In this document: positions 326 through 25,651 of the stretch, one piece after another
How the letters are laid out: every line of letters begins with the position of its first letter
Position numbering within the stretch: position 1 is the first letter of the stretch
Origin: an uncultured Bacilli bacterium
Lineage (GTDB): Bacteria; Bacillota_I; Bacilli_A; RF39; UBA660
Direction of reading: 5' to 3'
Length of the DNA stretch: 33,015 nucleotides
Assembly: GCA_947624115.1 (NCBI GenBank)
Contig: CANQIS010000006.1
Span: 1 to 33,015, forward strand
The notes under the pieces: model-generated
Database searches by the model: none
What the model saw: the letters and a program-made list of their open reading frames with translations, nothing else
What the model was told of the DNA's origin: nothing
Program-made: the position numbers and the translations under genes

Positions 326-2110
326 TTATTTTTCTATTTCTAATCTAACTCTTACTTTTTCTATCAAAGTTTTTCTCATTCTATTATTAACTTTTTTAAA
401 GGCAAAGAAATGTTGATTACTTTCAAAGTCAATTATTGTTGTATAAATGGAATCTTTTGTAGTATCTAAACTATTATTTTCAACAATCCTTTGGTCAGTA
501 ATATCACTTCTTGGACTGCTATTAAGCCCAGGTTTACAAATAAATCGAATTACATAAGGGTCCTTTTCACCTTTTTCATTAATTGCTCCAATTATTCCAT
601 AATCTACTAATGCCTCAAAAATATCTTCATCAAATTCTTTTTCCATATTTGAGCTATCTCTGACCATAAGTTCCGTCTTTATTTTCTTGATTCCTAATTC
701 CACTTTTGCCTCTTTTTTGATTATACTATTTAATTGTTCTTTTTTTATTTCTAATGCGTGAAGTTTTTGGTCAATTTCTTCATTTTTCTTACTATAACTA
801 TCATCATCAATATCTCCTGCAATTAATAAGTCTAAAATCTTATTTTTCTTATTTCTTAAAGTAGCTATATCTTTTTCGGTATTTTCTTTCATAGTAATTG
901 CTGTTCTATCTTTAGTTGCACTTTTTAAATTTTCTAAAAATTCTTCTAGCATTAATCCATCATTTGACGTTAGTAAAAAATATAATTGCATAAAACAGGA
1001 CTTAATAGTTTTTTCGTGCATAATTTTACTATTTGGACAAAGTTCTCTTGCCGAGCCTGTAACACTTAAACAATCCCAAGCAAGATTTTTTTTGTATAAT
1101 GATTTTTTAACATAAGCCTTTCCACAAAAGCCACATCTAAATCTACCACTAAATGTAAATTTATGTTGCATTTTTCTTCCAGTTTCTTTTGATACATTTC
1201 GTATACTTAAAATTTCTTGGACTTTATCAAAAGTTTCTCTATCAACAATAGGCTCATGATGATCCTTATATATAAATAAATCTTCTTGTCCCTTATTTTG
1301 TATTCTTTTATGAGTCAGTGGATTTTCTGTAATAGTCTTGCCTTGAACAATGTCGCCAACATATTTTTCGTTTCTTAAAATATTAGAAATAGTTGTACCA
1401 CCCCATTTATCTTTTCCCGTTGGTGACGGTACTTTCATTTCAGTTAAATTTCTTGCTATTGAAGTAGTACCAAATCCATCAATGTAAGACTTAAAAATTA
1501 GTCTTACTACTTCTGCCTCATTTTTTACTATTTTCATTTTCTTTTTCTTACTATCATATACGTATCCATAGCAATTATTGAAACCAACTAATTCGCCACG
1601 TTCCATTTTCATTTTAAATCCCATTCTAACTCTTGATGAAGTGTTTTCACTTTCTTGTTGAGCAACAGATGATAATACTGTTAAAAGTAATTCACCTGCC
1701 ATATCCATCGTATTAATTCCCTCTTCTTCAAAAATTACTGCCACTTTTTTTTCTCTTAATTTTCTAACGTAAGTTAAAGTATCTAGTGTATTTCTTGCAA
1801 ATCGTGAAATTGATTTTGTTAAAATTAGATTTATTTTTCCGTTAAGTGCGTCATTAATCATTCTTAAAAAATTATCTCTTTTTAAAGTCATTGTTCCACT
1901 AATACCCTCATCAGCATATACTTCAACAAAATTCCAATCGGGATTCTTGTAAATCTTTTCCATATAATAGCTTTGTTGAGAGGCAAAACTTGATTTTTGA
2001 TCTTCCATATCTGTTGATACTCTTGCGTATGCTGCTACATTTAATTTTTGTACTTTCCCAGTATTTTCATCTATCTTACCATTTTTTTTCCTAATTATTT
2101 CAATTTCCAT
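326..2110 (-). CDS. Large serine recombinase (apparently catalytically intact)
   Basis: A 594-residue large serine recombinase, expected to catalyse integration and excision of the element by double-strand cleavage through a phosphoserine link. The N-terminal resolvase domain (about residues 25-165) has the catalytic serine in YARVST (Ser32) and both arginines of SISRFARNT (Arg103, Arg106). A Recombinase domain follows (about 190-300, with the NEKYVGDI motif), then a zinc ribbon (CGFCG near 340 and a distal Cys) and a long coiled-coil stretch (about 410-480). The C-terminal segment (FEALVDYGIIGA) resembles the C-termini of the two other long recombinases here. It is the last gene of the operon, overlaps the preceding ORF by 11 bases (coupling likely), and lies nearest the att end. 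All residues expected for activity are present. Confidence 0.93.
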   Translation of the reverse strand: MEIEIIRKKNGKIDENTGKVQKLNVAAYARVSTDMEDQKSSFASQQSYYMEKIYKNPDWNFVEVYADEGISGTMTLKRDNFLRMINDALNGKINLILTKSISRFARNTLDTLTYVRKLREKKVAVIFEEEGINTMDMAGELLLTVLSSVAQQESENTSSRVRMGFKMKMERGELVGFNNCYGYVYDSKKKKMKIVKNEAEVVRLIFKSYIDGFGTTSIARNLTEMKVPSPTGKDKWGGTTISNILRNEKYVGDIVQGKTITENPLTHKRIQNKGQEDLFIYKDHHEPIVDRETFDKVQEILSIRNVSKETGRKMQHKFTFSGRFRCGFCGKAYVKKSLYKKNLAWDCLSVTGSARELCPNSKIMHEKTIKSCFMQLYFLLTSNDGLMLEEFLENLKSATKDRTAITMKENTEKDIATLRNKKNKILDLLIAGDIDDDSYSKKNEEIDQKLHALEIKKEQLNSIIKKEAKVELGIKKIKTELMVRDSSNMEKEFDEDIFEALVDYGIIGAINEKGEKDPYVIRFICKPGLNSSPRSDITDQRIVENNSLDTTKDSIYTTIIDFESNQHFFAFKKVNNRMRKTLIEKVRVRLEIEK

Positions 2111-2669
2111 TATCTATACCTATTAAGCCTTTCTTAATTTTGGAAGTAACTAAATTATTTGTAGCCTTTTCTCTCATTAAAATCTGTACTTCATCAAAAG
2201 TAATATCATTAGAAATCCTTTTGTTTTTACCTAGATATATGGCTGAAATTATTTCTAATAGTCTTTCCTCCGACATATCCAATGTAAAAATATTTTCTTC
2301 CATAAAATATATACCTATGTTTTTCTTTGTTAATAGTCTTATATATTTTAAAGTTTCTACTGTATTTCTACCAAATAATGAAAATGATTTTGTTAAAATT
2401 AATTTTATATTTTTATTTAGGGAATCATTAATCATATTCTCAAAGTTAGTGTTATTTTTAATAGTCATATCGGACTTATCAGTATCAATATATATTCCTG
2501 CAAAATTCCAATTTTTATTTCGTGAAATGAAGTTTTTAAAAAATTTCTTTTGTAAATCTAGACTTTTTGTCTGTCTTTTATTTTTTTTACTTACTCTAAT
2601 ATAAGCAGCAACATTTATTTTTTCATATTTGAAATCTTCTATATTAACTTTAGCTATTTCTATTTTCAT
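2100..2669 (-). CDS. Stand-alone resolvase catalytic domain, truncated serine recombinase paralogue
   Basis: This 189-residue protein is homologous only to the N-terminal catalytic domain of its neighbours. It keeps the nucleophile context AAYIRVS (Ser27), but the usual SISRFxRN motif reads SFSLFGRN, so the first catalytic arginine is Leu98 while Arg101 remains. It stops after a short tail where the neighbours continue with their long helix, Recombinase domain and zinc ribbon; all DNA-binding parts are missing. It starts two bases after the previous stop (TAA-AT-ATG) and overlaps the next gene by 11 bases. The frame is clean and tightly packed in the operon, so it may be a maintained small subunit rather than a decaying gene. 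Activity alone is doubtful. Confidence 0.8.
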   Translation of the reverse strand: MKIEIAKVNIEDFKYEKINVAAYIRVSKKNKRQTKSLDLQKKFFKNFISRNKNWNFAGIYIDTDKSDMTIKNNTNFENMINDSLNKNIKLILTKSFSLFGRNTVETLKYIRLLTKKNIGIYFMEENIFTLDMSEERLLEIISAIYLGKNKRISNDITFDEVQILMREKATNNLVTSKIKKGLIGIDNGN

Positions 2670-2671
2670 AT

Positions 2672-4114
2672 TTACTTATCATCTCTTTCAAAACATATAG
2701 AAATTCTTACTTTATCAACTATTTTTGTAAGATTAACATCATTTACTCTTTCAAATACTAAAAAATATTGCTCACTAATAAAATTCAAAATTTCATAATA
2801 TTCATGTTCAAAAATATTTAATTTGGAATTACCATTGCATAAAAAGAAATCACTATTATTTCTCAATATAAACTTAAAAGAATATGGATCAAATACATTT
2901 TTATCTTTATTACCAACAATTACATATTTAATGATTTTATCAAATAACTGTCCATCAAAACTTTCTATGGATTCAGAATTTTTTAATATTCTATTTACGT
3001 ATAATAGATTATTATCTATTAACTTTTTTTGAATGTTATCATACTCGTTTAACATTAAGTTAAAAGTATTTACGAATGCTACCTCAAGAATGTCATCTCT
3101 TATCATTTTACTTCCACAATACCCATTTTTAGTAGTTTGACAAAATAATTTGTAACTTTTATTATCTTGATGAAATCTACTAAAAGAATTACCACAAAAG
3201 CCACAAAATACTTTTCTAGTAAAAATTGTTTCTTTTTGTAATTGCTTTGTTTGTATTATATTTGTATATTTTTTTAAATGTTTTTCTTGCACTTTATCAA
3301 AAGTATCTCTATCAATAATAGGCTCATGATGATTTTTAAGTAAATAAATATCACCTTTTTCTTCAGTAGCATTTTTTTGGGCTATGAAATTATTTGCTAT
3401 TTTTAATTTTCCAAATAGTATATCACCAACATATTTTTCATTTGTTAAAATTCTTATTATCGAATTATGACCCCATTTAGCTTGATTATTATAATTTAAA
3501 TAGCCATCTTTCTCTAATTTAGTAGCTATTTTTCTAGTAGCCATGCCATCTAGATATAGTTTAAAAATTAATCTAACTACTTTTGCCTGTTCCTCATTAA
3601 TAATATAATTTTTCTTTTCGACATCATAAATATAGCCAAAAAACGAAGTTCCATATGGCAAATATCCATTTAAAGATTTTTCACTTAAAGCATTTACAAT
3701 ATTTTTAGAATAATTTTTTGAAAAATCTTTTATAACATTTAATTGATTAGAAACAGTTTTTTTACGTGTTGAATATTTTTCTTTTACAAAATATATATCT
3801 ACATTATTATCACGTAAGAAAATCAAAAGACTATTTAAATCTAGTTCTTCTATATTTAATGATGAAACACTATCTATAACAAAAAGGTCAATATTTTTAT
3901 TAAAAATGTCATCAATTAATTTAGAAAAATTTTTTCTATTTTTTTCATAATTTTCTTCATTACAACTACTATATATTCCGATTAATTCCCAGTTCTTTTT
4001 TTGCTTTACAAATTTTTTTAGATTAGTTTTAGTTGATAAGTAATTTTCATCATTATACTTATTAGCTCTAAAAAATATCGCTGCTTTCTTTTCTATTCCA
4101 TATATATTACTCAT
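2672..4114 (-). CDS. Serine recombinase paralogue with a degenerate catalytic domain
   Basis: A protein of about 480 residues with the architecture of a large serine recombinase. In place of the catalytic YxRVS it has FFRANKY (Asn18 at the serine position), and the SISRFxRN motif has become SVSSLNIEE, losing both arginines. The Recombinase domain (NEKYVGDIL, DRDTFDKVQ) and zinc ribbon (CGFCG ... CGS) are kept, as is the family C-terminal segment (IIKYVIVGN). It is therefore predicted to bind att DNA but not to cut it. The ORF track starts at 4162. I chose ATG 4114 because GGAGG lies 10 bases upstream and this start falls two bases after the previous stop, the same TAA-AT-ATG junction used by the next gene. 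A role as architectural or directionality partner is inference. Confidence 0.85.
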   Translation of the reverse strand: MSNIYGIEKKAAIFFRANKYNDENYLSTKTNLKKFVKQKKNWELIGIYSSCNEENYEKNRKNFSKLIDDIFNKNIDLFVIDSVSSLNIEELDLNSLLIFLRDNNVDIYFVKEKYSTRKKTVSNQLNVIKDFSKNYSKNIVNALSEKSLNGYLPYGTSFFGYIYDVEKKNYIINEEQAKVVRLIFKLYLDGMATRKIATKLEKDGYLNYNNQAKWGHNSIIRILTNEKYVGDILFGKLKIANNFIAQKNATEEKGDIYLLKNHHEPIIDRDTFDKVQEKHLKKYTNIIQTKQLQKETIFTRKVFCGFCGNSFSRFHQDNKSYKLFCQTTKNGYCGSKMIRDDILEVAFVNTFNLMLNEYDNIQKKLIDNNLLYVNRILKNSESIESFDGQLFDKIIKYVIVGNKDKNVFDPYSFKFILRNNSDFFLCNGNSKLNIFEHEYYEILNFISEQYFLVFERVNDVNLTKIVDKVRISICFERDDK

Positions 4115-4116
4115 AT

Positions 4117-5652
4117 TTACACTACCTCCAAAGGATTGTATTCTACACTTACTGGTAGACAATCAATAATTACTAAATTTTTCTTATTATTAATTTTTTC
4201 ATAATAATGAAATGGGCTTTTATAAGTAAACTCTAAAATTTTATTATACTTACTGTTGACCACATTTTTTCTATTCGAGCCAGGATCAATAATAAGTTTC
4301 TTTTTCGTGCATAGAATATATCTAATGTTAAAAGGACCGTACTTATCATTTGAATTTTCATTTCCAATAATTATGTATTCAACTAGCTCTGAAAATACAT
4401 TCATATTAAATTCTTCTGTTAATTGATATTGTGATAATATTTTTTTTGTATGATTAAGATTTTGTAAAACATCTTCTTCATCATTTTTATTTAGTCTTAA
4501 TTTTAATTTTTTCATGACAATATAAGAAATTTCTTTTAACAAATCTTCACTTATTTGCTTTGATTTATCACATCTTGATTCGGTTTCGAAACTATGATTA
4601 CATATAATTTTTGACTTTTCTTTATTATTGTTAGAAAAATAATGATCGAAGAAACTGCCACAGTAACCACATATACACTTGCGCCTAAATGAAGACTGAT
4701 TTGACATTTCTGGTATTTTGTTTTTAATACTCAAACATGTATTAGCAGCATATCTTCGTTTTATTTCTTCTTGAGCCTTATTGAAAGTTTCTCTATCAAT
4801 AATAGGCTCATGATGATTTTTAATAAGATACATATCTTCTTGTCCCGTATTTCTAACAAGTTTACGAGAAAATATATTAATAGTTATGTATTTCCCCTGT
4901 AATAAATCACCAGTGTACTTTTCATTCATTAATAAATTTTTTATGTTAGTTATTTTAATGTTAAATTTATCTTTAATAATATTTGTTATTTGATTATAAT
5001 TTTTGCCCTCCAAAAAGAGTCTAAATATTTCTTTAACAACTATACTTTCTTTTTTGTTGACTACTATTTTTTTATTTTTAGCAACATATCTATATCCAAA
5101 ACAAACTGTTGTCCCAACTATTTCGCCTCTTTGTCGTTTCATTTTATATGCAAGTCGAACATGACTAGATAAATTTTCACTTTCTTGTTGAGCCACTGAT
5201 GCTAAAACAGTAATTATAAAATTACCAGTAGCACCAAGTGTGTAAATATTTTCTTCAATGAAGAATACTCCAACATCATTTTCTTTTAATAATCTTAACC
5301 ATTTGAGCAGGTCAACAGTATTTCTACAAAATCTAGAAATTGATTTTACTAAAATGAGGTCCATTTTATCATTAATTGCATCTTCCATCATTCTCATAAA
5401 ATTTCTTCTTTTACTTGTACTTGTTCCACTAATACCCTCATCAGAATATATATCTACAAATTCCCAGTTTCCATTTGAATTAATTAAATTGTAAAAATAT
5501 GAACATTGAGAATCATAGCTATGTTCTTGATCTTCATGTAGTGTACTTACCCTTACATAAGCAGCAACTCTACGTTTTCTTTGTTTTAAATTTGTTAATG
5601 AATTAATATTTACGTCTTCTTGAATTGTTTTTCTTTGAACAAATATATCCAT
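4117..5652 (-). CDS. Large serine recombinase (apparently catalytically intact)
   Basis: A 511-residue large serine recombinase. The resolvase domain (about residues 28-170) carries AAYVRVST (Ser36) and SISRFCRNT with both arginines. The Recombinase domain (about 190-300, NEKYTGDLLQGK) is followed by a zinc ribbon (CICGYCG ... C) and a shorter linker than in the 594-residue paralogue. The C-terminus again contains the shared FxELVEYIIIG segment. The ATG at 5652 has a strong AGAAGGAGG site nine bases upstream, the best ribosome binding site in the operon, so this is probably its most highly translated recombinase. With the 594-residue protein it is one of two candidates for the active enzyme pair, comparable in principle to CcrA/CcrB of SCC elements. 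Confidence 0.93.
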   Translation of the reverse strand: MDIFVQRKTIQEDVNINSLTNLKQRKRRVAAYVRVSTLHEDQEHSYDSQCSYFYNLINSNGNWEFVDIYSDEGISGTSTSKRRNFMRMMEDAINDKMDLILVKSISRFCRNTVDLLKWLRLLKENDVGVFFIEENIYTLGATGNFIITVLASVAQQESENLSSHVRLAYKMKRQRGEIVGTTVCFGYRYVAKNKKIVVNKKESIVVKEIFRLFLEGKNYNQITNIIKDKFNIKITNIKNLLMNEKYTGDLLQGKYITINIFSRKLVRNTGQEDMYLIKNHHEPIIDRETFNKAQEEIKRRYAANTCLSIKNKIPEMSNQSSFRRKCICGYCGSFFDHYFSNNNKEKSKIICNHSFETESRCDKSKQISEDLLKEISYIVMKKLKLRLNKNDEEDVLQNLNHTKKILSQYQLTEEFNMNVFSELVEYIIIGNENSNDKYGPFNIRYILCTKKKLIIDPGSNRKNVVNSKYNKILEFTYKSPFHYYEKINNKKNLVIIDCLPVSVEYNPLEVV

Positions 5653-5877: not shown

Positions 5878-6072
5878 TTATTCATCTCTTTTCTTATATC
5901 TTCTAACAATAAGATCTAATCCTGGAGTAGTGTCCCATAAATTACTATTAGTAATTACTTTTCTTGCTTTTTTAATAGCCTCACTTTTTGTTCTCGCATT
6001 GACTATTATATTTTCACTAAAATCACCGATTATTATAGTTACTAAATAGGATTTTTCTTTTAATCTAAACAT
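5878..6072 (-). CDS. Small hypothetical ICE protein (64 aa)
   Basis: A 64-residue basic protein (MFRLKEKSYLVTIIIGDFSE...), predicted as a compact beta-alpha fold, with a helix rich in Lys/Ala (TKSEAIKKARKVI) and a basic C-terminus (VRRYKKRDE). It begins at an ATG that overlaps the stop of the 35-residue gene (TAATG) and ends directly against the start of the 58-residue gene, so translation of the three is probably coupled. I recognise no function. Size, charge and position fit a small DNA-binding or regulatory protein of the recombination module. Confidence 0.65.
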   Translation of the reverse strand: MFRLKEKSYLVTIIIGDFSENIIVNARTKSEAIKKARKVITNSNLWDTTPGLDLIVRRYKKRDE

Positions 6073-6189: not shown

Positions 6190-6455
6190 TTTTATATACT
6201 ATTATTTCTCCTAGAATGCCCATAGTATTGGGAAGTCATCAAACGATTGAGTGCTATTCAATCTCACAGGAATTCCACCTCTACGATATTAGTCGTAGCT
6301 ACCTCCATTGATTGTGTCTGTGGCTAGATAGGAGTATCTTTAATACTATTAGATGTCTTCGCAAATTAGGTGCTACCTAATTTTATAACCAAGTATTTGC
6401 CGACAAGCGTACTTGTTAACGTGCTATACCTAATAGGAACGTATTTGATGAATGT
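6190..6455 (-). promoter_or_regulatory. Long structured 5' leader RNA of the recombination operon
   Basis: This roughly 260-base minus-strand interval is visibly less AT-rich than its surroundings and packed with short inverted repeats. They include acaag/cttgt, aattaggt-agc-acctaatt, agata/tatct, ctacga/tcgtag, gattga/tcaatc and ccca/tggg. A longer-range pair, ctccta with taggag, encloses the last three. A TTGACA (minus strand, near 6468) could be the -35 of its promoter. It runs straight into the ribosome binding site of the 35-residue gene with no intervening terminator, so it is best read as a cis-acting leader of the recombinase operon. I could not assign it to any RNA family I know. Confidence 0.5.
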
Positions 6456-6561: not shown

Positions 6562-7038
6562 CTATTTTAAAATTTCTTTTAATTTTTTTAATGCAATATT
6601 CAGAGTATATTGTACTGCTCTAATATCTACATTTTCTTCAGTTGCTATTTGTTGCTGTGTTTTATCTTCGAAATAATATTTTTTTATTCTTCTTTTTTGT
6701 ATTTCAGGTAGTTGTTCAATAGCAAGTTTTAATTCTTCAAAAGTTGCTTTACGTATTATTTCATCTTCAATGCTTGGAATTTTATCTTTAATTCTATTAT
6801 TTAAAGTTTCTTCAAATATTTCAGAATGTTCTATATGTCTGTCGTATTCGTTTAATTCTTTAATATCATCAAGCTCAAATCTATCAAATGATACAAATAT
6901 TTCTTTGCTAACTTCTACATCTTGAATAATTCCCTTATAGTCCTTAAAACTTACTATATAAATATTTTGTGTTTCAATATATTTCAAAGTATATGGATTA
7001 TCTTTTGATTTTCTTCTTTTTGGTCTTTTATTAATCAT
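6562..7038 (-). CDS. Sigma-70 family factor of the ICE (Tn916 ORF7-like)
   Basis: A 158-residue protein whose C-terminal part (about residues 95-157) matches sigma region 4: ELKLAIEQLPEIQKRRIKKY, then QQQIATEENV and an RAVQY...LKKLKEIL recognition helix. The N-terminal part is basic and unassigned, as in the ORF7-like factors of Tn916/Tn1549-family elements. It probably directs RNA polymerase to element promoters for excision or transfer. The ATG at 7038 follows AGATAGGAGG closely. Part of that site lies in a perfect hairpin, and a terminator-bearing leader lies upstream, so expression looks controlled at transcriptional and translational level. A strong terminator follows the gene. Confidence 0.85.
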   Translation of the reverse strand: MINKRPKRRKSKDNPYTLKYIETQNIYIVSFKDYKGIIQDVEVSKEIFVSFDRFELDDIKELNEYDRHIEHSEIFEETLNNRIKDKIPSIEDEIIRKATFEELKLAIEQLPEIQKRRIKKYYFEDKTQQQIATEENVDIRAVQYTLNIALKKLKEILK

Positions 7039-7044
7039 CTTTCC

Positions 7045-7066
7045 TCCTATCTTTTTTTAGATAGGA
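7045..7066 (-). promoter_or_regulatory. Hairpin overlapping the ribosome binding site of the sigma gene
   Basis: TCCTATCT and AGATAGGA form a perfect 8-bp stem with a six-base A loop on the minus strand. The 3' arm contains the first bases of the AGGAGG site of the sigma gene, so folding would mask it partly. The inverted repeat is plain; its regulatory effect is inferred. Confidence 0.5.
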
Positions 7067-7109
7067 AGATAGGTGGTGACCTACAATGAATATTAAAAAT
7101 AATCAATAC

Positions 7110-7148
7110 AAAAAAAACAGTATTAATCTTTAAATGAGTAATACTGCT
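7110..7148 (-). terminator. Intrinsic terminator/attenuator ahead of the sigma gene
   Basis: On the minus strand GCAGTATTA ... TAATACTG gives an 8-bp perfect stem (7139-7146 with 7118-7125) followed by seven T residues. It stands between the structured leader (7149-7325) and the sigma start at 7038, as in an attenuator or transcriptional riboswitch. It could instead simply end an independent small RNA. Confidence 0.8.
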
Positions 7149-7325
7149 TTTAGAACTCTTAATTATATTAAATTTAAACAATGCATACCTAAATATCTTT
7201 AGGTATAAAATAAAAATTAGATACATAAGCCGAACCCCAAACCCAACAATGCTAAACTGTTAGAAGGTTACTGCTTAAATTATCTAACTAAAAAATAAAA
7301 TAATAGCATTGCTTCTTTAATTGCG
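7149..7325 (-). ncRNA. Structured leader or small RNA upstream of the sigma gene
   Basis: The minus-strand RNA from the promoter at 7330-7358 shows nested pairing. AAGCCG near the start pairs with CGGCTT (about 7225-7232). Inside it CAATGCTA (7304-7311) pairs perfectly with TAGCATTG (7247-7254). Inside that GTTAGA pairs with TCTAAC. A separate hairpin (tacctaaa/tttaggta) and then the terminator follow. A 9-codon uORF starts within the second stem and ends just past the third. No known riboswitch consensus is apparent to me. The order of promoter, folded domain, terminator and sigma gene points to transcription attenuation, possibly driven by ribosome movement on the uORF. Confidence 0.6.
7280..7309 (-). 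CDS. Candidate 9-residue leader peptide (MLLFYFLVR)
   Basis: ATG CTA TTA TTT TAT TTT TTA GTT AGA TAA, preceded by AAAGAAG about four bases upstream. The start codon lies in the 5' arm of the CAATGCTA/TAGCATTG stem and the final codons in the GTTAGA/TCTAAC stem, so a translating ribosome would open both. Short hydrophobic leader peptides in such positions control attenuation of resistance genes and of the Tn916 tet(M) region. Whether it is translated is unknown. Confidence 0.35.
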   Translation of the reverse strand: MLLFYFLVR

Positions 7326-7329
7326 GCTT

Positions 7330-7358
7330 ATTATACCACTTTTTGTCAAAAAATGCAA
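7330..7358 (-). promoter_or_regulatory. Sigma-A-type promoter of the sigma-gene leader
   Basis: On the minus strand TTGCAT (7358-7353), a 17-base spacer and TATAAT (7335-7330). The predicted transcript start, about seven bases on, coincides with the first base-paired element of the leader RNA. Confidence 0.65.
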
Positions 7359-7403
7359 AAAAAATCGATATAAGTAGATTTTATCACATACTTTATCACA
7401 CAC

Positions 7404-10163: not shown

Positions 10164-11627
10164 TTAAAATTTTGTATACTTATAAACTTTGTTACTTTCT
10201 AATTCTTTAGAAAATCTATCAACAGCATTTTGCCAAGTAGGAAGTTTTTCAAATCCAAATGTTTCTAATTTAGTTTTATTTAATTTAGAATTTTTAGGTC
10301 GATAAGCAATATTACTCATATCCTTACCAGTATAATATTCTTCTGTTGTTACAGGATTGATATGACAATCTTTATTATTCCTTTGCATAATATATTTTGC
10401 AAATTCTGCCCAAGAGCAATAACCCTCATTTGTTACATTATATGTTCCATATTTTTCTGAAAAAGCCATTTCTACTAAAACTTTAGCTAAATCAATAGTA
10501 TAAGTTGGACTACCTATTTGGTCGGATACAACATTTAATTCATCATGACTATTAGCTAGTTTAAGCATTGTCTTTACAAAGTTATTGCCATTTATTCCAA
10601 ATACCCAAGAAATTCTTGCTACAAAATGTTTAGGATTTCTTCTTACCTCTTCTTCCCCTAAATATTTAGTTTTACCATAAACACTTAAAGGATGAGGAAT
10701 ATCTTCTTCTATATAAGAATCATTCGTATCTTTTTCACCATCAAAAACATAATCTGTGGAAGTATAGATGACTTTTGCACCAATTTTTAATGAGGCATCA
10801 ACAATGTTTTTAGTTCCATTAACATTAATATTTTCACAATAACTTGGATCAACTTCGGCCTTATCTACTGCTGTATAAGCAGCACAATGAAAAATTACAT
10901 CAGGTTTATAAGTAGTAATAATATTCATAACTTGTTCTCTATTAGTAATATCCATCTCTTTACTAGATAAAGCTAATATATCATTTTCACCACGTTCATT
11001 CAATTCTCTAACTATATCATGACCAAGTTGTCCTGTAACTCCTGTTACTAGAAACTTTCTAGGCTTTCTATAAAATGATACGCCACTTTCTTTTAAAGAT
11101 GAACGATTACTATCTTTTGCTGATAATAAAGGACTTTCAATATTATATTCTTTAAAAGTTTCTTGCCATGGAATATTAACTTCTTTATCATCCCAAGCAA
11201 TGCCACCCTCCATTCTTGGTGCATATTTATTATCAACAAAATAATTAAAAACAGCATCATCTGTTAAAGCAACAAAGCCATGAGCAAAGCCTCTTGGAAC
11301 ATAAAGCATTTTTCCATTTTCTTGAGTTAGCTTTACTGATGTATATTTTCCGTATGTAGAAGAATCTTTTCTCATATCAACAACGACATCAAGTACTGCT
11401 CCGTTAGTACAATAAACTACTTTGGCTTGACAGTATGGATCTTTTTGAAAATGAAGACCTCTTACTGTTCCCTTAACACTTTTTGATTCACTTTTTTGAT
11501 AGAATCCTTTAAAACCTAGTTCTTCTAATTCTTCTTTTGTAATAGATGAAAAATATCCTCTATCGTCACCAAACCTTTTTGGCTCTAGTATGTAACAATC
11601 ATTTAAATTAGTTTCTATTTTGTTCAT
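10164..11627 (-). CDS. rfbC/rfbD: Fused dTDP-4-dehydrorhamnose 3,5-epimerase / reductase (RmlC-RmlD)
   Basis: A 487-residue bifunctional enzyme for the last two steps of dTDP-L-rhamnose synthesis. Residues 1-185 are an RmlC cupin (FGDDRGYF, GTVRGLHFQ with the catalytic His, VVDMRKDS, FNYFVDNKYAP). Residues 190-487 are an RmlD-type SDR (GVTGQLGHD Rossmann loop, YTSTDYVFDG, active-site YGKTKYLGE). Both halves have their key residues. Such fusions are known in low-GC Firmicutes. It starts at ATG 11627 (AGAGGAAAG upstream), overlapping the end of rfbA by 20 bases. No RmlB dehydratase is encoded in the window, so its substrate must come from a chromosomal RmlB. The product would feed the rhamnosyltransferase-like GT2 enzymes of the cluster. 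Confidence 0.95.
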   Translation of the reverse strand: MNKIETNLNDCYILEPKRFGDDRGYFSSITKEELEELGFKGFYQKSESKSVKGTVRGLHFQKDPYCQAKVVYCTNGAVLDVVVDMRKDSSTYGKYTSVKLTQENGKMLYVPRGFAHGFVALTDDAVFNYFVDNKYAPRMEGGIAWDDKEVNIPWQETFKEYNIESPLLSAKDSNRSSLKESGVSFYRKPRKFLVTGVTGQLGHDIVRELNERGENDILALSSKEMDITNREQVMNIITTYKPDVIFHCAAYTAVDKAEVDPSYCENINVNGTKNIVDASLKIGAKVIYTSTDYVFDGEKDTNDSYIEEDIPHPLSVYGKTKYLGEEEVRRNPKHFVARISWVFGINGNNFVKTMLKLANSHDELNVVSDQIGSPTYTIDLAKVLVEMAFSEKYGTYNVTNEGYCSWAEFAKYIMQRNNKDCHINPVTTEEYYTGKDMSNIAYRPKNSKLNKTKLETFGFEKLPTWQNAVDRFSKELESNKVYKYTKF

Positions 11628-12537
11628 AAACTTTCCTCTTTTCTTTAACCTTTACTAAATATTTTCCATATTGATTATTGTTAAAAGTTTCTGCCCTTTT
11701 AGAAAGTTCCTCATTAGATAGCCATTCATTTATGTACCCAATATATTCAGGACAGCATATAACTATATCTTTATTATTTTGAATTGTCTTTACCATATTT
11801 GAGGCATCAAGTAAACTTTCAAAAGTTCCTGTATCAAACCAAGTATAACCACTATCTAAAATTGTCGATTTTAATAATTCATTCTTTAAATAAATTTCAT
11901 TTAAGCAAGTGATTTCTAATTCCCCTCTCAAAGATGGCTCTATGCTTTTAGCAATTTTAGAAACACCTTTTGGATAAAAATATAATCCAGTAACTGCATA
12001 ATCACTTTTTGGATTAATAGGTTTTTCTTCAATGCTTAAAACATTGTTATATTCATCTACTTCCATAATTCCAAATCTTTCAGGATCTTTAACTTGATAT
12101 CCAAAAATGGTCGCATAGCCATTAACAGCATTATTTCTAGCTTTAGACAATTCTTTTTCTAATCCACTACCATAAAAAATATTATCACCTAAAATCATTG
12201 CACAAGGACTATTATCTATAAATTCTTCCCCTAAAATAAATGCCTGTGCCAATCCATCAGGACTTGGCTGAACGATATACGATAAATTAATACCAAATTG
12301 ACTTCCATCTTTTAATAATCTTTTAAAATAAGGTTGATCCTGTGGCGTTGTAATAATAAGAATATCACGAATTTCTGCTTGCATTAGAACCGATAACGGA
12401 TAAAAAATCATTGGCTTATCATATACTGGCAACAATTGCTTACTTACACCTTCTGTTATAGGATATAATCTTGATCCAGTTCCTCCTGCTAGTATAATTC
12501 CTTTAATATCACTTTTAGTTTTAGATTTTTCTGCCAT
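11608..12537 (-). CDS. rfbA: Glucose-1-phosphate thymidylyltransferase (RmlA)
   Basis: A 309-residue nucleotidyltransferase making dTDP-glucose from dTTP and glucose-1-phosphate. It has the signature GIILAGGTGSRLYPIT near residue 13, SKQLLPVYDKPMIFYPLS, ILGDNIFYG and the EEKPxxPKS motif, and is close to the family's usual length of about 290, with a slightly extended N-terminus (MAEKSKTKSD). ATG 12537 is preceded by AAGAGG. It is the first gene of the rml unit and overlaps the RmlCD gene. A candidate minus-strand promoter (TTGTGT, 17 bases, TATTAT) lies in the 12600-12640 region, divergent from the acetyltransferase promoter. Confidence 0.96.
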   Translation of the reverse strand: MAEKSKTKSDIKGIILAGGTGSRLYPITEGVSKQLLPVYDKPMIFYPLSVLMQAEIRDILIITTPQDQPYFKRLLKDGSQFGINLSYIVQPSPDGLAQAFILGEEFIDNSPCAMILGDNIFYGSGLEKELSKARNNAVNGYATIFGYQVKDPERFGIMEVDEYNNVLSIEEKPINPKSDYAVTGLYFYPKGVSKIAKSIEPSLRGELEITCLNEIYLKNELLKSTILDSGYTWFDTGTFESLLDASNMVKTIQNNKDIVICCPEYIGYINEWLSNEELSKRAETFNNNQYGKYLVKVKEKRKVYEQNRN

Positions 12538-12651
12538 AAACTAACCTCTTTTCTTGTTTTCATAATTTTCATAATGAGCATGTTTAATATTGTCGCACGT
12601 ATGGCTTATATAATAACATAATAAATACAAAAACACAACTGCTAATTTTCG

Positions 12652-12680
12652 TTGACAATAGCTAAAGAGTAGTGTAAAAT
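12652..12680 (+). promoter_or_regulatory. Sigma-A-type promoter of the acetyltransferase gene
   Basis: Plus strand TTGACA (12652-12657), exactly 17 bases, then TAAAAT (12675-12680). It lies about 75 bases upstream of the acetyltransferase ATG and is one of the best promoter matches in the window. Confidence 0.75.
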
Positions 12681-12754
12681 AATGTCATCCATCAGAATAT
12701 ATAGTAATTGAAACTTCAACTTTGAAATTTTCAAAAAAAGTTAGGTCGTGAATT

Positions 12755-13384
12755 ATGAATAATTTTCTAAAAAAATGTATTAATTATATATATATATATA
12801 TATTTAAAGGAAATAAGATTGTTAAAACGGGAAACAATAATATAATTGATATAAATAAAAAATGCATTAAGATTAAAAATACAAATATAAAAATACAAGG
12901 AAGTAATAACAAAATAATATTTGGCGAAAATTGTAATATTACAGGATTACATATCCTTATTATTGGAAATAATAATAGAATTTTAATTGGAAATAATGTT
13001 ACTATTAATGCGTCAAAATTACAACCAACTATCATTAATGCCATAGGTGGAAAAACAATCAGTATTGGTGATAATTCTCTACTTTCTAATAACATAGAAA
13101 TTCACACATCGGATTATCATGGAATATATAATGAAAATGGGAAAAGAATTAATCCTGATAAAGATATATATATAGGCAAAAAAGTATGGATTTGTCTAGG
13201 ATGCAAGATATTAAAAGGAGCTTATATAGGAGATGGGTGCGTACTTGGTGCTGGATCAATTATATCAAAAAAATTTGATGTCGTTAATTGTATTTTAGCT
13301 GGTAATCCAACTAAAATAATAAAAGAAAAAATTCAATGGCAAAAGGAAAGAAAAGATTCAATTAAAATTTCTAATACAAATTAA
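12755..13384 (+). CDS. Hexapeptide-repeat (left-handed beta-helix) O-acetyltransferase
   Basis: A 209-residue acyltransferase of the LbH/WbbJ-NeuO type. After a short basic N-terminus, imperfect hexapeptide repeats run from about residue 25 to 180 (NNKIIFGENCNI, GNNNRILIGNNVTI, GKTISIGDNSLL, DIYIGKKVWI, GAYIGDGCVLGAGSII). HTSDYHGIY near residue 113 carries the usual catalytic histidine, and LAGNPTKIIK is the typical C-terminal turn. It probably acetylates a sugar of the polysaccharide using acetyl-CoA in the cytoplasm. It is the only plus-strand gene inside the EPS locus, with its own promoter and terminator, so acetylation can be switched separately. The sugar substrate is unknown. Confidence 0.9.
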   Translation: MNNFLKKCINYIYIYIFKGNKIVKTGNNNIIDINKKCIKIKNTNIKIQGSNNKIIFGENCNITGLHILIIGNNNRILIGNNVTINASKLQPTIINAIGGKTISIGDNSLLSNNIEIHTSDYHGIYNENGKRINPDKDIYIGKKVWICLGCKILKGAYIGDGCVLGAGSIISKKFDVVNCILAGNPTKIIKEKIQWQKERKDSIKISNTN

Positions 13385-13432
13385 AATTACAAGTTACTGT
13401 AAATCTAATAGTGCTAACTTGTAATTTTTTTT
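13383..13432 (+). terminator. Convergent rho-independent terminator between acetyltransferase and flippase
   Basis: AAAATTACAAGTTA (13383-13396) pairs perfectly with TAACTTGTAATTTT (13415-13428), a 14-bp stem with an 18-base loop and a T-rich tail on the plus strand. It overlaps the stop codons of both converging genes, so it can also stop the minus-strand EPS operon, though the minus-strand U-tract is short. Confidence 0.85.
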
Positions 13433-14808
13433 CTTAAAAATATCTTTTTTAGATAATCCCAATGTAATATTATAATAAAAACAAATATAGTTACTTGAAT
13501 CAAATAGCAAATATTTAATGTAGCTAGAATTGATTGTAGAATTAGTAAGGCAATAGCCAAAATATGATTTTTCCACTTGACTTTCATTTTTATAAACTCT
13601 TGTAAACTTGTCGTTCTTAAAATCCACATAATACAATAACCAATCATAGTTGCCAAAGCAGCTCCAATAGCCCCAAATAAATATATAAATATAAAATTAC
13701 AAATAGTATTTACAACAGCACCAATTATCGTAGTTTTAGTAACTTCTTTTGTCTTTTTAGTAGCGGCAAACAAAGAACCTTCAAATTGCGATATCCCATT
13801 AAAAATGGTGCCAACTAATAAAAAAGGAACACATTTATATGCACTAAAAAAATCTTTAGAATACAAGAACATAGCAATTGGAACATTAAACAACATTATT
13901 ATAGAACACACAGCAACGGAAAGTAAACTATATATTGTGTAATTATTTCCAATAAAACCATCTTTATCTTTACTATCAAATTCAGCAATCGCAGAAATAG
14001 ACCAAGCATTGTAAAAAATACTTTGAAAAGTAGTTAATATTATCGGTATTTTACAAGAAATTGCATAAACACCATTGACAGCCATACCAGAAATCCATAA
14101 CAAGATATATCTATCACTTGCATTATTTACCCACCAAGAGAGAGAATTTGCTATTAATGGAAAACTATACTTAATCATAGGTTTAGATAAATTATTATAT
14201 TTTCTAATATGAAAATCTTTATATATTTTTCCAATAAAAAATTGATAATTAAACTGAAATAATAGACCTGCTATAATTCCAATCATATATCCATTTATAC
14301 CCATATTAAAAACGACTAAACATAATATATTAGTTAAACATGTTATTAATGTTGATATTATCCCACTTACAACTATAACTTTAGCCTCATTTTTAGCTTT
14401 AAAATATACATTGAAACAATTATTAAAAGCATTAAAGAAAAAGGAAAAAAATAAAAATAACCAATATATTAAACTAAATTTGATAATGCCTGATACACTA
14501 ACAAAAATTATACCAATAATGAAAATGAGTGTACTTTTTAATATAATATTAATTGTTGTAGATAATACATCTTTTTTCTCATATTGATTATCCATACCAA
14601 AACGAAGTGTCGCATCTTGTATACTTAATAATAATATAGGCATTAATAATTGAGCTGTTGATTGTAGTAAGTCAACAGTTCCATAATCTGATGTACTTAA
14701 TATCGATGTATACAATGGAAGTAATAAAAATGATATAATCTTTGATCCAAAACTTCCTAATGTAAATATTCCTATGTTTTTAATTAATGACTTATACTTT
14801 TTTTTCAC
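13414..14808 (-). CDS. Oligosaccharide flippase (Wzx, MATE/MOP superfamily)
   Basis: An integral membrane protein of about 464 residues with 12-14 predicted spans, beginning KKYKSLIKNIGIFTLGSFGS, the typical start of polysaccharide flippases (PST/RfbX). It is expected to turn the undecaprenyl-linked repeat unit to the outer face. The ORF track starts at GTG 14817. I prefer GTG 14808, because the AGGTG ribosome binding site lies six bases before it and overlaps the earlier candidate. Last gene of the EPS operon, close behind the SDR gene. A plus-strand terminator overlaps its end. Confidence 0.9.
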   Translation of the reverse strand: MKKKYKSLIKNIGIFTLGSFGSKIISFLLLPLYTSILSTSDYGTVDLLQSTAQLLMPILLLSIQDATLRFGMDNQYEKKDVLSTTINIILKSTLIFIIGIIFVSVSGIIKFSLIYWLFLFFSFFFNAFNNCFNVYFKAKNEAKVIVVSGIISTLITCLTNILCLVVFNMGINGYMIGIIAGLLFQFNYQFFIGKIYKDFHIRKYNNLSKPMIKYSFPLIANSLSWWVNNASDRYILLWISGMAVNGVYAISCKIPIILTTFQSIFYNAWSISAIAEFDSKDKDGFIGNNYTIYSLLSVAVCSIIMLFNVPIAMFLYSKDFFSAYKCVPFLLVGTIFNGISQFEGSLFAATKKTKEVTKTTIIGAVVNTICNFIFIYLFGAIGAALATMIGYCIMWILRTTSLQEFIKMKVKWKNHILAIALLILQSILATLNICYLIQVTIFVFIIILHWDYLKKIFLRKKITS

Positions 14809-14822
14809 AAAAAACACCTCGA

Positions 14823-15671
14823 CTAATATTTCATATCATCATAAGTAATTATACCTGCTCCACCAGTTATATATACCGTGTCACCAACAATCATTTTTCC
14901 CATATTACTTACAAGCATAACTGCAACATTGGCAACTTCTTCGGGTGCTACAAATCTTTTTGTAATTGTATTTTCATTATGCAAATCATTAAAGTCATCT
15001 TGCTTTAACATAGGTGTTGAAGTTGATCCTGGAGCCAGTCCGTTGACAATTATTCCGTATGGCAATAATTTTTTAGCCATACCTAAGGTAAGTGCACGTT
15101 CACCCCATTTAGAAATAATGTATGGAGAAATAGCAGGTCTTAAAGCTGAAGAAGAAGTTATATTTAAGATATTACCCTCAATTTTATTTTCAAGCATATA
15201 CTTTGTTATAACTTGTGACATAAAATACATACCTTTTAAATTTGTATCTAATATTTTATCATATTCTTCTTCAGTAGTATTTGGAAATGATGTCCCACCA
15301 TTTACTCCGGCATTGTTAACAAATATATCTATTTTTTTGTCTATACTTTCGCTTATTGACAAAAAATCTTTTTCCAAGCTACTTACTTTAAAAATATCTA
15401 ATTTAGCTATAATTACTTTACTATCTTCACATCTGCAAGTTGCTATTAATTTTTTCTTGGCTTGTTCTAGTTTTTCATTATTTCTCCCTGTTATAATAAC
15501 TGTTGCACCATTTTTTACAAATGATTCAGCAATAGAATATCCAATACCAGAAGAACCACCTGTAATAAATGCACATCTGCCAGTTAAGTAATTACCTTCT
15601 AATGTAGGTATTAAAATTTTTTCTTTTTTTACCCTTACCATTTTCTTTAATAACCTTTTAATCTTAGCCAT
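14823..15671 (-). CDS. Short-chain dehydrogenase/reductase (SDR)
   Basis: A 282-residue classical SDR. It has the NAD(P)-binding TGGSSGIG (residues 37-44), NNAG followed by VNGG, the ITSSSA serine, the YIISK active-site Tyr/Lys pair, and the GDTVYITGGAG C-terminus. About 25 basic residues precede the Rossmann fold. It lies directly downstream of the MenD-like ThDP enzyme (19-base gap), and together with the pyruvyl transferase they look like a module that makes or modifies an unusual sugar or substituent: a ThDP enzyme would form a ketone that the SDR then reduces. That pathway is inference. Start ATG 15671 has AAGAGG. Confidence 0.88.
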   Translation of the reverse strand: MAKIKRLLKKMVRVKKEKILIPTLEGNYLTGRCAFITGGSSGIGYSIAESFVKNGATVIITGRNNEKLEQAKKKLIATCRCEDSKVIIAKLDIFKVSSLEKDFLSISESIDKKIDIFVNNAGVNGGTSFPNTTEEEYDKILDTNLKGMYFMSQVITKYMLENKIEGNILNITSSSALRPAISPYIISKWGERALTLGMAKKLLPYGIIVNGLAPGSTSTPMLKQDDFNDLHNENTITKRFVAPEEVANVAVMLVSNMGKMIVGDTVYITGGAGIITYDDMKY

Positions 15672-15690
15672 ACATTTAACCTCTTTTACT

Positions 15691-17403
15691 TTACCTATTT
15701 TTTAGTTTATTAATTGTTTTCTCTCCTATTATTTTCTTTATTGAATTTTTTAATTCCTTTTTTAAATATCCATTATTTTTTAAATTTTTATTAATTAATA
15801 ATTGATATGCTTTACTTTCATCAATATCACTAACAAAAGTTTCTAAAATAATTGGCTTATCGGATTTATTTAAAAATGTTTTGCTAGCATTCATAAATTC
15901 ATTCATATTATTCGCACTTAAATATATAAAGCCACAGGTTTCTGCCCATCCTTTAGCATTTTTAAAATGATTTGCAGCTGCAATATAATCATCTATTTCT
16001 TTTTTATCTTCGCCATGAAGTTTAAATTCGATTCCACCATTATTATTGATTAGTAAAATACGTAGATTATTTTTGATATGTCTTATTCCTAGTGAATTTA
16101 AATCATAGAAAAAAGCTAAATCACCAATTACCATAAATGATAATTCATTTGATATAACACTTTGTCCAATCAAAGTTGACATACCACCATCTATCCCAAA
16201 AGCACCAACATTTGAAAAACATTGAATCGTAGGATTTAAATAAAACAAATTCCAAATTCTTAGACTATTTAATATAGAAAATTGTATTATAGAGTTCATA
16301 GGAATTTTGTCATGTAAATATTGTGCTATACTTACGTTAGAAAATGGAACACTAATATCATTTTTCAATGAAGAGGTTTCTTTTGACCATAATTCAAAAT
16401 AATCATGATTAACATTATTTTCTTCAACACGTAAAAAGAAATTCTCAACTCTACCTTTAAAAACTTTTGTTAACTTATCATATGTATCTACAACTTTTCC
16501 ATCAACAGAAACTATCCAGTGTTCTACTTCTGCAAGAGAAGTTTTTGATAATTTATTATATAATGGATAATCACCAGTTTGTCCACCGATAGTAATAAAA
16601 ATATCAGGCTTAAGTCTATCAAATTCATCATCTGTAATAATAGATAATAATAAATTACCATTAACTGAATAATTATTAGAAAAATTAGAAAGATGATTAA
16701 CATAAACAACTGAATTAGTATTATTACAAAAATAATTTATTGCATTTTTCTCTTTCTCATTAAAAGGAAGATGTTCACCAATAACAATTAGTATTTTTTT
16801 GCTAGACAAATCTATTTTTTGCATATCTTCTATTGAAATTCTAATTATAGATTTATTTTTAGGCTCAACATTGTCTATCTTAAAATCTAACCATGGAACA
16901 CATAATTGTACTGGCCCTAATCCATCATTAGATAACTCTAAAATCGCGTCATTTATTACTCTTCTACTATGATAAATATCATTGATATCACTTATAAATG
17001 GCAATTCAAATGATTTTTTTACACTATCATTAGGAAGTGATGTTTGATCTGGAGCTTGCATATATCCTTGATATTTAAATCTAGGGTGCTTTTCCATAGT
17101 TATTGCTAAAAGTGGCACTCCTTTATAATATGCTTCAGTTAAACCTGGTATATAATTTCGTGTGGCTTGAGCACTGGTACATACCATTGCAACAGGTCTA
17201 CCAGTTTGTAAATAAATTCCTATTGCAAAATAAACAGCACTTCTTTCATCAACAATTGAATAACATTTAAAATACTCATCATTTTGAAGTAATTTTACTA
17301 ACTGTACGTTTGTACCACCTGGATTGATAACAATAGTATCTATTTTATGTATTTTTAATAATTCTACTATCATTTGAACATTTTTAATATTATTTATATT
17401 CAT
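15691..17403 (-). CDS. MenD-like thiamine-diphosphate-dependent enzyme
   Basis: A 570-residue three-domain ThDP enzyme. The N-terminal PYR domain has VDERSA (Glu53, the cofactor-activating glutamate), CTSAQATRNYIPGLTEAYY and VPLLAITMEKHP. The C-terminal PP domain has GIDGGMSTLIG and GDLAFFYDLNSL ... NNNGG, the MenD form of the ThDP motif (GDL, not GDG). MenD's usual N-terminal SPGSRS is NPGGTN here and its GGGIF loop is GGIEF, so the substrate is probably not the menaquinone intermediate. In this setting it may join a two-carbon or larger acyl unit from a 2-oxo acid to a sugar, as YerE does for yersiniose, before SDR reduction. Start ATG 17403 has AGGTGAT. Family sure, substrate unknown. Confidence 0.8.
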   Translation of the reverse strand: MNINNIKNVQMIVELLKIHKIDTIVINPGGTNVQLVKLLQNDEYFKCYSIVDERSAVYFAIGIYLQTGRPVAMVCTSAQATRNYIPGLTEAYYKGVPLLAITMEKHPRFKYQGYMQAPDQTSLPNDSVKKSFELPFISDINDIYHSRRVINDAILELSNDGLGPVQLCVPWLDFKIDNVEPKNKSIIRISIEDMQKIDLSSKKILIVIGEHLPFNEKEKNAINYFCNNTNSVVYVNHLSNFSNNYSVNGNLLLSIITDDEFDRLKPDIFITIGGQTGDYPLYNKLSKTSLAEVEHWIVSVDGKVVDTYDKLTKVFKGRVENFFLRVEENNVNHDYFELWSKETSSLKNDISVPFSNVSIAQYLHDKIPMNSIIQFSILNSLRIWNLFYLNPTIQCFSNVGAFGIDGGMSTLIGQSVISNELSFMVIGDLAFFYDLNSLGIRHIKNNLRILLINNNGGIEFKLHGEDKKEIDDYIAAANHFKNAKGWAETCGFIYLSANNMNEFMNASKTFLNKSDKPIILETFVSDIDESKAYQLLINKNLKNNGYLKKELKNSIKKIIGEKTINKLKNR

Positions 17404-17411
17404 AAATCATA

Positions 17412-18563
17412 TCACCTATTTTCTATAACTTTTTCTAAACTTATTATAAAACTTTTCTTTTTATCCTCTATCAATTTTTGAGATTTCTTTTGTGTTTCTA
17501 AAAGTTCTTTCCTATTTTCAATATATTGTAATGTTTTATTAAAAGCCGACTCACTATCTTCAGTTTTTCCATTGATAACATATTCATACTCTAAACTATT
17601 GAAAAGACCTTCAAATTTTCTACTATAAGAAACTGGTATAGTCAAAACTCCAGCAGAAAATGCTGCAATAGTTGAATGCATTCTAGATCCAATAAATATA
17701 TCCATATTAGAAATATAACTTTTAGCATCAATAGGGTTTGTAAAAACTGGAGCTAAAATACAATTTTCAATTTTCTTTGCTAACTTTTCACATATAGCAT
17801 AATCATCATCATGGGCATTTTCTGATAAGTCTATTACATGAGGAATTAAATAGACTTGATAATCAGGATTATTAGAAAAATATTTTATAACTTTTTCTAT
17901 ATAATTTTTATAATCTATGGTTAAATCAAACTGATTCAAAGAATTAAAGCCACCTTTATATAATAAACCTGATACATTAATTCCTACTTTTATTTTTTTA
18001 GATTCTATATTGTATTTTGAGCTGTCATAAGGAAGAAAAAATGCCATATCTGTAACTAATTCTGTATTATTTATTTTAAAGTCCTTTTCAACTATATCTA
18101 GTGACATTTTATCTCTACAATAAATTTTCTTTGCCTTTTTCAAAATTTTGATAGCAATTTTTCTTGAGTCATCTTCAAAAGGACCATACGTTTGAGGCAA
18201 TAGAATATAATTTTTACATAAAAATTCTGCTAACAATTTATTTTTAGCTAATCTCTTAAAATACTCTTTTGAATATATATCTGAGAAACTGTCACCCATA
18301 GTTGCGTCCAAAATAATATCGCAATCATGTAGGGCTCTTATATATGTTAGTCTTAAATCCTTTATTTTAGTTTTAACATTTATAAACTTAAAATTTGGGA
18401 ATCTTTCTTTAATGCTACCTAATCTAGTATTGCTAAAATTATATATTGTAGTATTCTCTTTTAAAGGTGAATAATCATTAAGAATAGAAATTATAGAATA
18501 AGTTAATGCCTCACAGCCCTTGTTTGGTGAAACAAATTCACATCCCATTAGACCTATTTTCAT
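17412..18563 (-). CDS. Polysaccharide pyruvyl transferase family protein
   Basis: A 383-residue member of the PS_pyruv_trans family (CsaB/WcaK-like), beginning MKIGLMGCEFVSPNKGCEAL, with LLPQTYGPF in the middle and the family's IGSRMHSTIAAFSAGVLTIPVSYS segment near residue 300. These enzymes transfer pyruvate from phosphoenolpyruvate to sugar residues as ketals, adding negative charge to the polymer; some family members do other transfers. It overlaps the WbsX-type gene by 26 bases and is followed by the MenD-like gene after eight bases. ATG 18563 has AAGGAG upstream. Confidence 0.88.
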   Translation of the reverse strand: MKIGLMGCEFVSPNKGCEALTYSIISILNDYSPLKENTTIYNFSNTRLGSIKERFPNFKFINVKTKIKDLRLTYIRALHDCDIILDATMGDSFSDIYSKEYFKRLAKNKLLAEFLCKNYILLPQTYGPFEDDSRKIAIKILKKAKKIYCRDKMSLDIVEKDFKINNTELVTDMAFFLPYDSSKYNIESKKIKVGINVSGLLYKGGFNSLNQFDLTIDYKNYIEKVIKYFSNNPDYQVYLIPHVIDLSENAHDDDYAICEKLAKKIENCILAPVFTNPIDAKSYISNMDIFIGSRMHSTIAAFSAGVLTIPVSYSRKFEGLFNSLEYEYVINGKTEDSESAFNKTLQYIENRKELLETQKKSQKLIEDKKKSFIISLEKVIENR

Positions 18564-19620
18564 TTTCTTTCCACTCCTTAATCCATTCTAAATATTTATA
18601 ACCGTTTTGTTCCGTTGGCTCAAGCATCATACCCTCTGCCCATTCATTCCATGCATTAATAAAAACAAACTCATCGTTTTTTATTAAATTCATATATTTA
18701 ACAAAATTATCTTTTTTAACAGGGGTTATTATATAACCTCTATATGAATGTCTAGGTGTATTATCCCACTCAAAAAACAAACCTCTTATAACATTATTAT
18801 TAGATTCATAATTCTTGCACATCAATTTTAAAAGTTTATCACCATTATATATAATAATATTTTTTATATTAAAAGTGTGTGAAAGAGCTTTTAGTTTATT
18901 TATAGTTCTTTTTGGTATAGATAATAAAGTATGTTTATATTGGTCTAGTATATAGGTCGGTTCTCTTAAATGTATTAATCTACTATAATCAATATCATTA
19001 TTTATAAGGTTTTTCCAATTAGAAGTTTGATATGTTTCTATTATACAAATTCCATTAAATCCATTTTCTTTACACTTCTTATCAAAAAAACTAAACATTT
19101 CTTTTTTTTCTGCAAATTTGGAATTAAAAATTAATAATAATGGCATATTATTTCTTTTTTGATACCTAGAATCTTTAAAAAATGGTAGTAAGTAATTAAA
19201 ATGTTCTTCCCATTCTTTCTCTTTTCCATATTTTTGTTCTAATAAAAGTTCTTTAGAGCCTTCCCAAGAACGAAACCAACTATGATTTGCCCAACAAAAG
19301 AAAAATTCAATATCTATATCTTTGTTACTTAATAACATTTCAGCAGGTTTTTCTAATATTTTTTTACCAGTAAAATAGTAATGATAAAAAATAAGCCCAT
19401 CAACTTTGTATTTTTTTAATAAATTTTCTTGCCATTTTAAAGTATCAACATTATCCAAAGAATAATAATTGTTATTCAATGGAATTTTAGGTTGAATATG
19501 TTTTTTAAATAGTGGCTTTGCTTTTTTTACATTCACCCATTCTGTAAATCCTTTTCCCCACCATTCATCATTTTCTGGTATACAATGAAATTGTGGCAAA
19601 TAATATGCAAATATTTTCAT
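18538..19620 (-). CDS. WbsX-type glycosyltransferase (GH99-like fold)
   Basis: A 360-residue protein with the hallmark start MKIFAYYLPQFHCIPENDEWWGKGFTEW split across its first 30 residues, and the C-terminal NAWNEWAEGMMLEP motif of the WbsX family (Glyco_tran_WbsX, related to endo-mannosidase family GH99). WbsX proteins occur in O-antigen and capsule clusters and are treated as glycosyltransferases, although hydrolase activity is possible. Full length. ATG 19620 has GAAAGGAG. It ends in TGA, showing TGA is a stop in this genome. Part of the coupled EPS operon. Confidence 0.88.
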   Translation of the reverse strand: MKIFAYYLPQFHCIPENDEWWGKGFTEWVNVKKAKPLFKKHIQPKIPLNNNYYSLDNVDTLKWQENLLKKYKVDGLIFYHYYFTGKKILEKPAEMLLSNKDIDIEFFFCWANHSWFRSWEGSKELLLEQKYGKEKEWEEHFNYLLPFFKDSRYQKRNNMPLLLIFNSKFAEKKEMFSFFDKKCKENGFNGICIIETYQTSNWKNLINNDIDYSRLIHLREPTYILDQYKHTLLSIPKRTINKLKALSHTFNIKNIIIYNGDKLLKLMCKNYESNNNVIRGLFFEWDNTPRHSYRGYIITPVKKDNFVKYMNLIKNDEFVFINAWNEWAEGMMLEPTEQNGYKYLEWIKEWKENENRSNGM

Positions 19621-19645
19621 TTGTTCTTACTCCTTTCAAATTTAC

Positions 19646-20752: not shown

Positions 20753-20761
20753 AAATATCAA

Positions 20762-25525: not shown

Positions 25526-25651
25526 ATTTTACAACTCCTAATTCTTATTTTTTCTGCATTCTTTTCAGCTTTTATCGTTAGATAATACCATTAATAATAA
25601 ACACTATTTTATATAACCATGCATAATTACATAAAATAATATAACAATACT

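Follow-up and report, generated by a model that had tools for sequence, protein, structure and literature searches.

The sigma-like gene in this stretch of DNA is preceded by a 59-codon upstream open reading frame (uORF) that runs through an intrinsic terminator and ends in an Arg-Ser-Pro-Pro (RSPP) motif placed just before a hairpin masking the sigma Shine-Dalgarno (SD) sequence. The uORF is best read, by analogy with known leaders, as an arrest peptide of the RAPP type. We consider it probable, from comparison of homologous sequences, that the leader works as a switch with two steps, both dependent on translation, in which uORF translation would carry transcription past the terminator and stalling on RSPP would free the sigma SD. 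The window, meaning the whole stretch analyzed, comprises 33,015 nt from an uncultured Bacilli bacterium (UBA660; GCA_947624115.1, contig CANQIS010000006.1, positions 1-33,015). Its relevant features are as follows.

7330-7359, minus strand: promoter TTTGCA-18-TATAAT (extended -10) immediately preceding the leader; agrees with the consensus at 10 of 12 positions.
7224-7329, minus strand: 5' structured domain (P1, P2, P3, and loop motif), with comparative support; z -1.3 for the fold alone.
7329-7324 and 7232-7227, minus strand: stem P1, AAGCCG/CGGCTT, coordinates computed.
7311-7304 and 7254-7247, minus strand: stem P2, CAATGCTA/TAGCATTG, coordinates computed.
7288-7283 and 7264-7259, minus strand: stem P3, GTTAGA/TCTAAC, coordinates computed.
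7276-7269, minus strand: loop motif AAGCAGUA, part of the 5' structured domain.
7280-7309, minus strand: 9-codon ORF MLLFYFLVR*, named by the initial annotation.
7047-7226, minus strand: 59-codon uORF MYLIFILYLK...NIHCRSPPIFLSKKR*, proposed arrest peptide; in homologues the frame stays open through the terminator.
7110-7151, minus strand: predicted intrinsic terminator within the 59-codon uORF, hairpin at about 7151-7118 and U8 at 7117-7110; z -4.7.
7071-7082, minus strand: RSPP codons AGG TCA CCA CCT, proposed stall site, from the motif scan and homologues.
7042-7069, minus strand: hairpin masking the sigma SD (AGGAGG, 7048-7043); z -4.3.
6562-7038, minus strand: regulated gene, a sigma-70 region-4 protein of 158 residues (PF08281, PF04545).

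The promoter, the three stems, the 9-codon uORF, and the terminator described in the initial annotation were all located on the minus strand of the window, and a uORF-containing attenuator does lie upstream of the sigma gene as had been proposed. The span given for it, 7110-7358, holds the elements that were named but omits the decisive part, 7226-7042, with the 59-codon uORF, the RSPP motif, and the SD hairpin. The near-consensus promoter is present, although as a bare match it is no better than chance: 28 matches of this type were found and 28.8 are expected in shuffled DNA, so the promoter call rests on position and not on statistics. The promoter scan found no minus-strand promoter-like site between 7039 and 7110, where a separate promoter driving the sigma gene would, by the initial annotation, have refuted the attenuator. 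The 226-nt leader is more stable than its shuffles (z -5.3; 0 of 200 fold as well). It is at most a putative riboswitch: the stems have moderate covariation support, but the leader resembles no described RNA family, with no Rfam match at the gathering threshold or even at E <= 5. At the DNA level, plasmids and phages held no homologue of the leader apart from one 40-nt phage match.

The peptide of the 59-codon uORF is MYLIFILYLKIFRYALFKFNIIKSSKSSITHLKINTVFFVLIIFNIHCRSPPIFLSKKR*. Its start at 7226 directly follows the stem strand CGGCUU, its CRSPP sequence lies just upstream of the sigma SD hairpin, and its stop codon overlaps the sigma SD. The RSPP codons begin 44 nt before the sigma start. 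Homologues were collected from genome and viral contigs, from the window's family, order, and phylum, from fetched stretches, and from plasmid and phage records, and Arg-x-Pro-Pro (RxPP) codons were sought upstream of every sigma hit. Of the 45 closest homologues (E<1e-30), 40 carry the motif, placed 44-66 nt ahead of the sigma start. Those lacking it include two with KSPP (L042, L083), one with RSPS (L048), and one incomplete locus (L020); the KSPP and RSPS cases count against the switch. So does the fading of the motif in distant homologues, from 4/6 through 12/24 and 9/23 to 0/8 as similarity falls.

At the variable position the 65 unfiltered hits have Ser (47), Gly (8), Ala (6), Asp (3), or Pro (1), and nothing else occurs at that distance. 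Cys directly precedes Arg in 43 of 64 leaders and is commoner with Ser or Asp than with the stronger Ala and Gly motifs (28:11 versus 3:8; Fisher p 0.013). As a control, SD-bearing genes across all fetched loci were scanned 40-70 nt upstream; 51 of 356 carry the motif and all 51 are of sigma type (one, in L120, is so classed because it is nearly identical to an annotated sigma gene of L056), a result that shows specificity within these loci and not a genome-wide rate, because many of the loci were fetched for their sigma gene. The layout of RxPP motif, SD hairpin, upstream terminator, and open frame is kept across the sigma homologues.

The SD hairpin begins at or near the Pro codons in all 65 RxPP leaders, with a median z of -5.1 and z < -2 in 64 of them. 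In the window its 5' arm is 7069-7059 and the sigma SD lies within the 3' arm. Hairpin lengths were too variable for a clean column alignment, and swap tests and a stem-registered pair tally were used in place of a covariance model; the stems in the tally were chosen by folding, so that it is informative only for the variety of pair types. Across 52 non-redundant loci, arms paired with their own partners gave -19.5 kcal/mol versus -11.0 kcal/mol when swapped. This covariation, with the placement in 65 of 65 leaders, suggests that the RSPP site is so positioned that a stall would open the SD-masking hairpin.

Such a hairpin also invites an explanation by RNA alone, in which CCxCCT is kept as the anti-SD strand and RSPP is merely what that strand happens to encode. 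In 48 of 65 leaders CCT does serve as the second Pro codon, and it pairs with the SD. The first Pro codon, however, is often unpaired, and the Arg and Ser codons lie mostly outside the hairpin, yet their amino acids are kept across switches of codon family. Among 51 leaders less than 60% identical to one another, Arg is encoded by AGR in 28 and CGN in 23, and Ser by AGY in 20 and TCN in 17; because both residues switch codon families, it is the peptide that is conserved. In 49 of 54 leaders, moreover, the RxPP frame passes through the entire terminator hairpin without a stop, compared with 11 and 7 for the other two frames. Codon-family switching and frame openness together argue that selection acts on the peptide rather than on the RNA, and we regard control by RNA alone as very improbable.

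Terminators were predicted in 55 of 62 leaders of relatives, 12-66 nt before the Arg codon, and their arms also pair better with their own partners than when swapped (-20.5 versus -6.0 kcal/mol, 48 loci). The start codons of the uORFs are inferred, and the uORF lengths are therefore estimates. Two features of the uORFs speak against the proposed switch: the SD of the window uORF is weak (3/6), and in-frame stops lie close upstream of RxPP in L047, L049, and L135.

Under the two-step switch, the structured 5' domain would first cover the start region of the 59-codon uORF, and a ribosome translating the uORF behind RNA polymerase would block folding of the terminator, thereby letting transcription reach the sigma gene. 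At RSPP the ribosome would then stall, its P-site tRNA carrying Arg-Ser-Pro and its A site holding Pro. When the first Pro codon sits in the P site, a ribosome also shields some 12-15 nt downstream of it, so that most of the 5' arm at 7069-7059 would be occupied, the hairpin melted, and the sigma SD left free. Without uORF translation, transcription would end early and any read-through mRNA would keep the SD masked. Some cue would set either uORF initiation or the lifetime of the arrest; as the initial annotation proposed, it is possible that the leader senses translation stress or a drug.

We infer stalling on RSPP from stalling on RAPP. Arrest peptides of this type have been described upstream of sec/yidC and other genes (PMC10987492, PMC12992588), and the stalled state has Pro in both the P and the A site (PMC10951233, PMC12992588). 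The uORFs described here resemble these peptides (ApdA, ApdP, the RQH family, and SecM with RAGP) in being small, in carrying R-x-P-P near the C terminus, and in having the regulated gene just downstream. Saturation mutagenesis of ApdA and ApdP found Gly fully permissive at the variable position, Ser, Asp, and Pro partly so, and Arg irreplaceable (PMC12992588); the residues found here fit that permissive set. RAPP-like motifs alone are insufficient for arrest, and RSPP is weaker than RAPP or RGPP (PMC12992588), a weakness that counts against the proposed switch. The present leaders differ from the known peptides in being mostly RSPP with Cys before Arg, in generally having no signal sequence, in enclosing an intrinsic terminator within the uORF, and in preceding a sigma-like gene of mobile elements instead of export machinery.

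The shared class of arrest motif raises the alternative that the leader peptide monitors membrane insertion through Sec or YidC, like SecM, MifM, ApdA, and ApdP. In the window the N terminus of the uORF is borderline hydrophobic (best 19-residue Kyte-Doolittle mean 1.61), but only 8 of 30 peptides reach the 1.6 threshold and many N termini are charged. The median of 41.5 residues before Arg means that little of the peptide would emerge from the tunnel, and the downstream gene is sigma-like (sigma-70 region 4) and not part of the export machinery. Judged by these sequence properties, Sec/YidC monitoring is unlikely for most members, and we think it improbable as an account of the leader as a whole.

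The 5' domain taken alone is unremarkable in folding, 20 of 200 shuffles being as stable, and its support is comparative. In 23 homologues, own and swapped partners were compared for pairing between the 5' end and the region around the uORF start, and 68 of 10,000 permutations did as well or better; alternative versions of the 5' stems are clear in L079 and L131. For P3, MAFFT alignment failed to register the stems and own-versus-swapped pairing was used; relatives keep a UUAAGYAGUA-like loop while the stem sequences change, and own pairing scored 7.2 versus 5.4, a somewhat generous figure in that it uses the highest-scoring among several candidate sites. The long-range stems of the initial annotation, for which it had suggested a check for covarying pairs, are thus moderately supported by covariation, and they may gate uORF initiation.

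The 9-codon uORF fared differently. In relatives the same AUG opens M-P-stop (L016), M-T-stop (L019), or M-P-L-stop (L021), and we rejected it as a sensor because the peptide is not conserved. The model built on it, in which the 9-codon uORF and the nested stems alone sense a drug or stress and the longer uORF is incidental, draws on the comparative support for the stems, on the terminator that follows them, and on the start of the longer uORF, MYLIF, which recalls the MYLIFM of the macrolide sensor MsrDL (PMC10314930). It ignores the sole feature conserved at the residue level, and MYLIF occurs, in any frame, in only 2 of 65 leaders; we find this model scarcely credible.

In msrD attenuation, a ribosome engaged on the MsrDL leader peptide stands in the way of an intrinsic terminator (PMC10314930). 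The window uORF opens with the same five residues as MsrDL (7226-7209, minus strand), but it encloses its terminator, and the motif conserved in it is RSPP, close to the end. The MYLIF match is probably a coincidence, since it is not conserved in relatives, and MsrDL-like drug sensing was rejected on the same count of leaders.

In Tn916, translation of the tet(M)/orf12 leader is believed to govern read-through, and through it the sigma-like orf7 (PMC7288454); in the proposed switch leader translation would likewise govern read-through toward a sigma-like gene. No RxPP uORF was found before orf7 or tet(M) in the Tn916-type element on pCF10, in agreement with the earlier view that the present leader is unrelated to that of Tn916.

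Some relatives have no good start codon in the RxPP frame: L054, L061, and L118, which are tet(O)/tet(40)-type elements together with one close relative, and L095, L123, and L127, from other families. In all six, a -1-convertible ORF meets the RxPP frame at A_AAA_AAA or A_AAA_AAG, an arrangement that suggests programmed -1 frameshifting into the arrest frame in these relatives. L108 misfits the -1 frame relation.

A second type of stall-like uORF occupies the same slot. It ends in W-x-x-Y-I-A-K/R-Y-P-stop 44-58 nt before sigma-like genes (L138-L146, L056:13747-13776, L062, L060:1375-1404, L093), the SD hairpin starts at the uORF stop codon, and 12 of the 13 downstream genes match the sigma profile, some of these being duplicate records. 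In 296 genomes belonging to the class of the window, the pattern did not occur. The use of two unrelated stall-like peptides in one slot supports the stalling model.

The regulated protein has Pfam matches to sigma region 4 only. Its gene is followed on the same strand by four serine recombinase ORFs (326-5652, minus strand), and in homologous loci serine or tyrosine recombinases likewise follow the sigma gene, an arrangement consistent with a mobile element in which the sigma-like protein may control the recombination module. The sigma-like protein probably drives the recombination and transfer genes. One of the recombinase ORFs, of 189 residues (2100-2669), matched only the N-terminal resolvase domain and may therefore be truncated. 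A pemK RNA motif (Rfam RF02913, 42.1 bits) lies at 6264-6343 on the minus strand, between the sigma gene and a small ORF at 5878-6072; in the relative L002 a PemK-type toxin gene and a tyrosine integrase come after the sigma gene. The recombination module is adjoined by a probable run of polysaccharide-biosynthesis genes (10164-28022), including a sugar transferase (25652-26335), a flippase-like protein (13414-14817), and an acyltransferase (26946-28022). These genes are possibly cargo of the element.

We found no report of CRSPP, YIAKYP, or conjugative-element arrest peptides in the open-access literature, and the use of a RAPP-type arrest motif before a mobile-element sigma-like gene is apparently both conserved and previously unreported. 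The novelty lies in the target, in the enclosure of a terminator within the uORF, and, probably, in independence from protein export. RAPP and RGPP uORFs had been reported to be largely absent from many Gram-positive bacteria, including Bacillota (PMC12992588); the present leaders would extend RAPP-type arrest peptides to a new class of target within that phylum. A broader and distinctly tentative idea is that nascent-chain switches of this kind are widespread in mobile elements, with arrest set by the condition of the ribosome itself (drugs, supply of EF-P or ABC-F proteins, rescue capacity) rather than by membrane translocation; trouble in host translation would then activate the sigma-like gene and so promote excision and transfer, and some relatives would also need a programmed -1 frameshift into the arrest frame. 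Among the elements with an RxPP leader are carriers of tet(O) or tet(40), found in records from Enterococcus and Streptococcus (L054, L061). A probable arrest motif, conserved at the level of single residues, precedes the regulator gene of diverse elements, and a link between ribosome state and horizontal gene transfer can therefore be put to a direct test.
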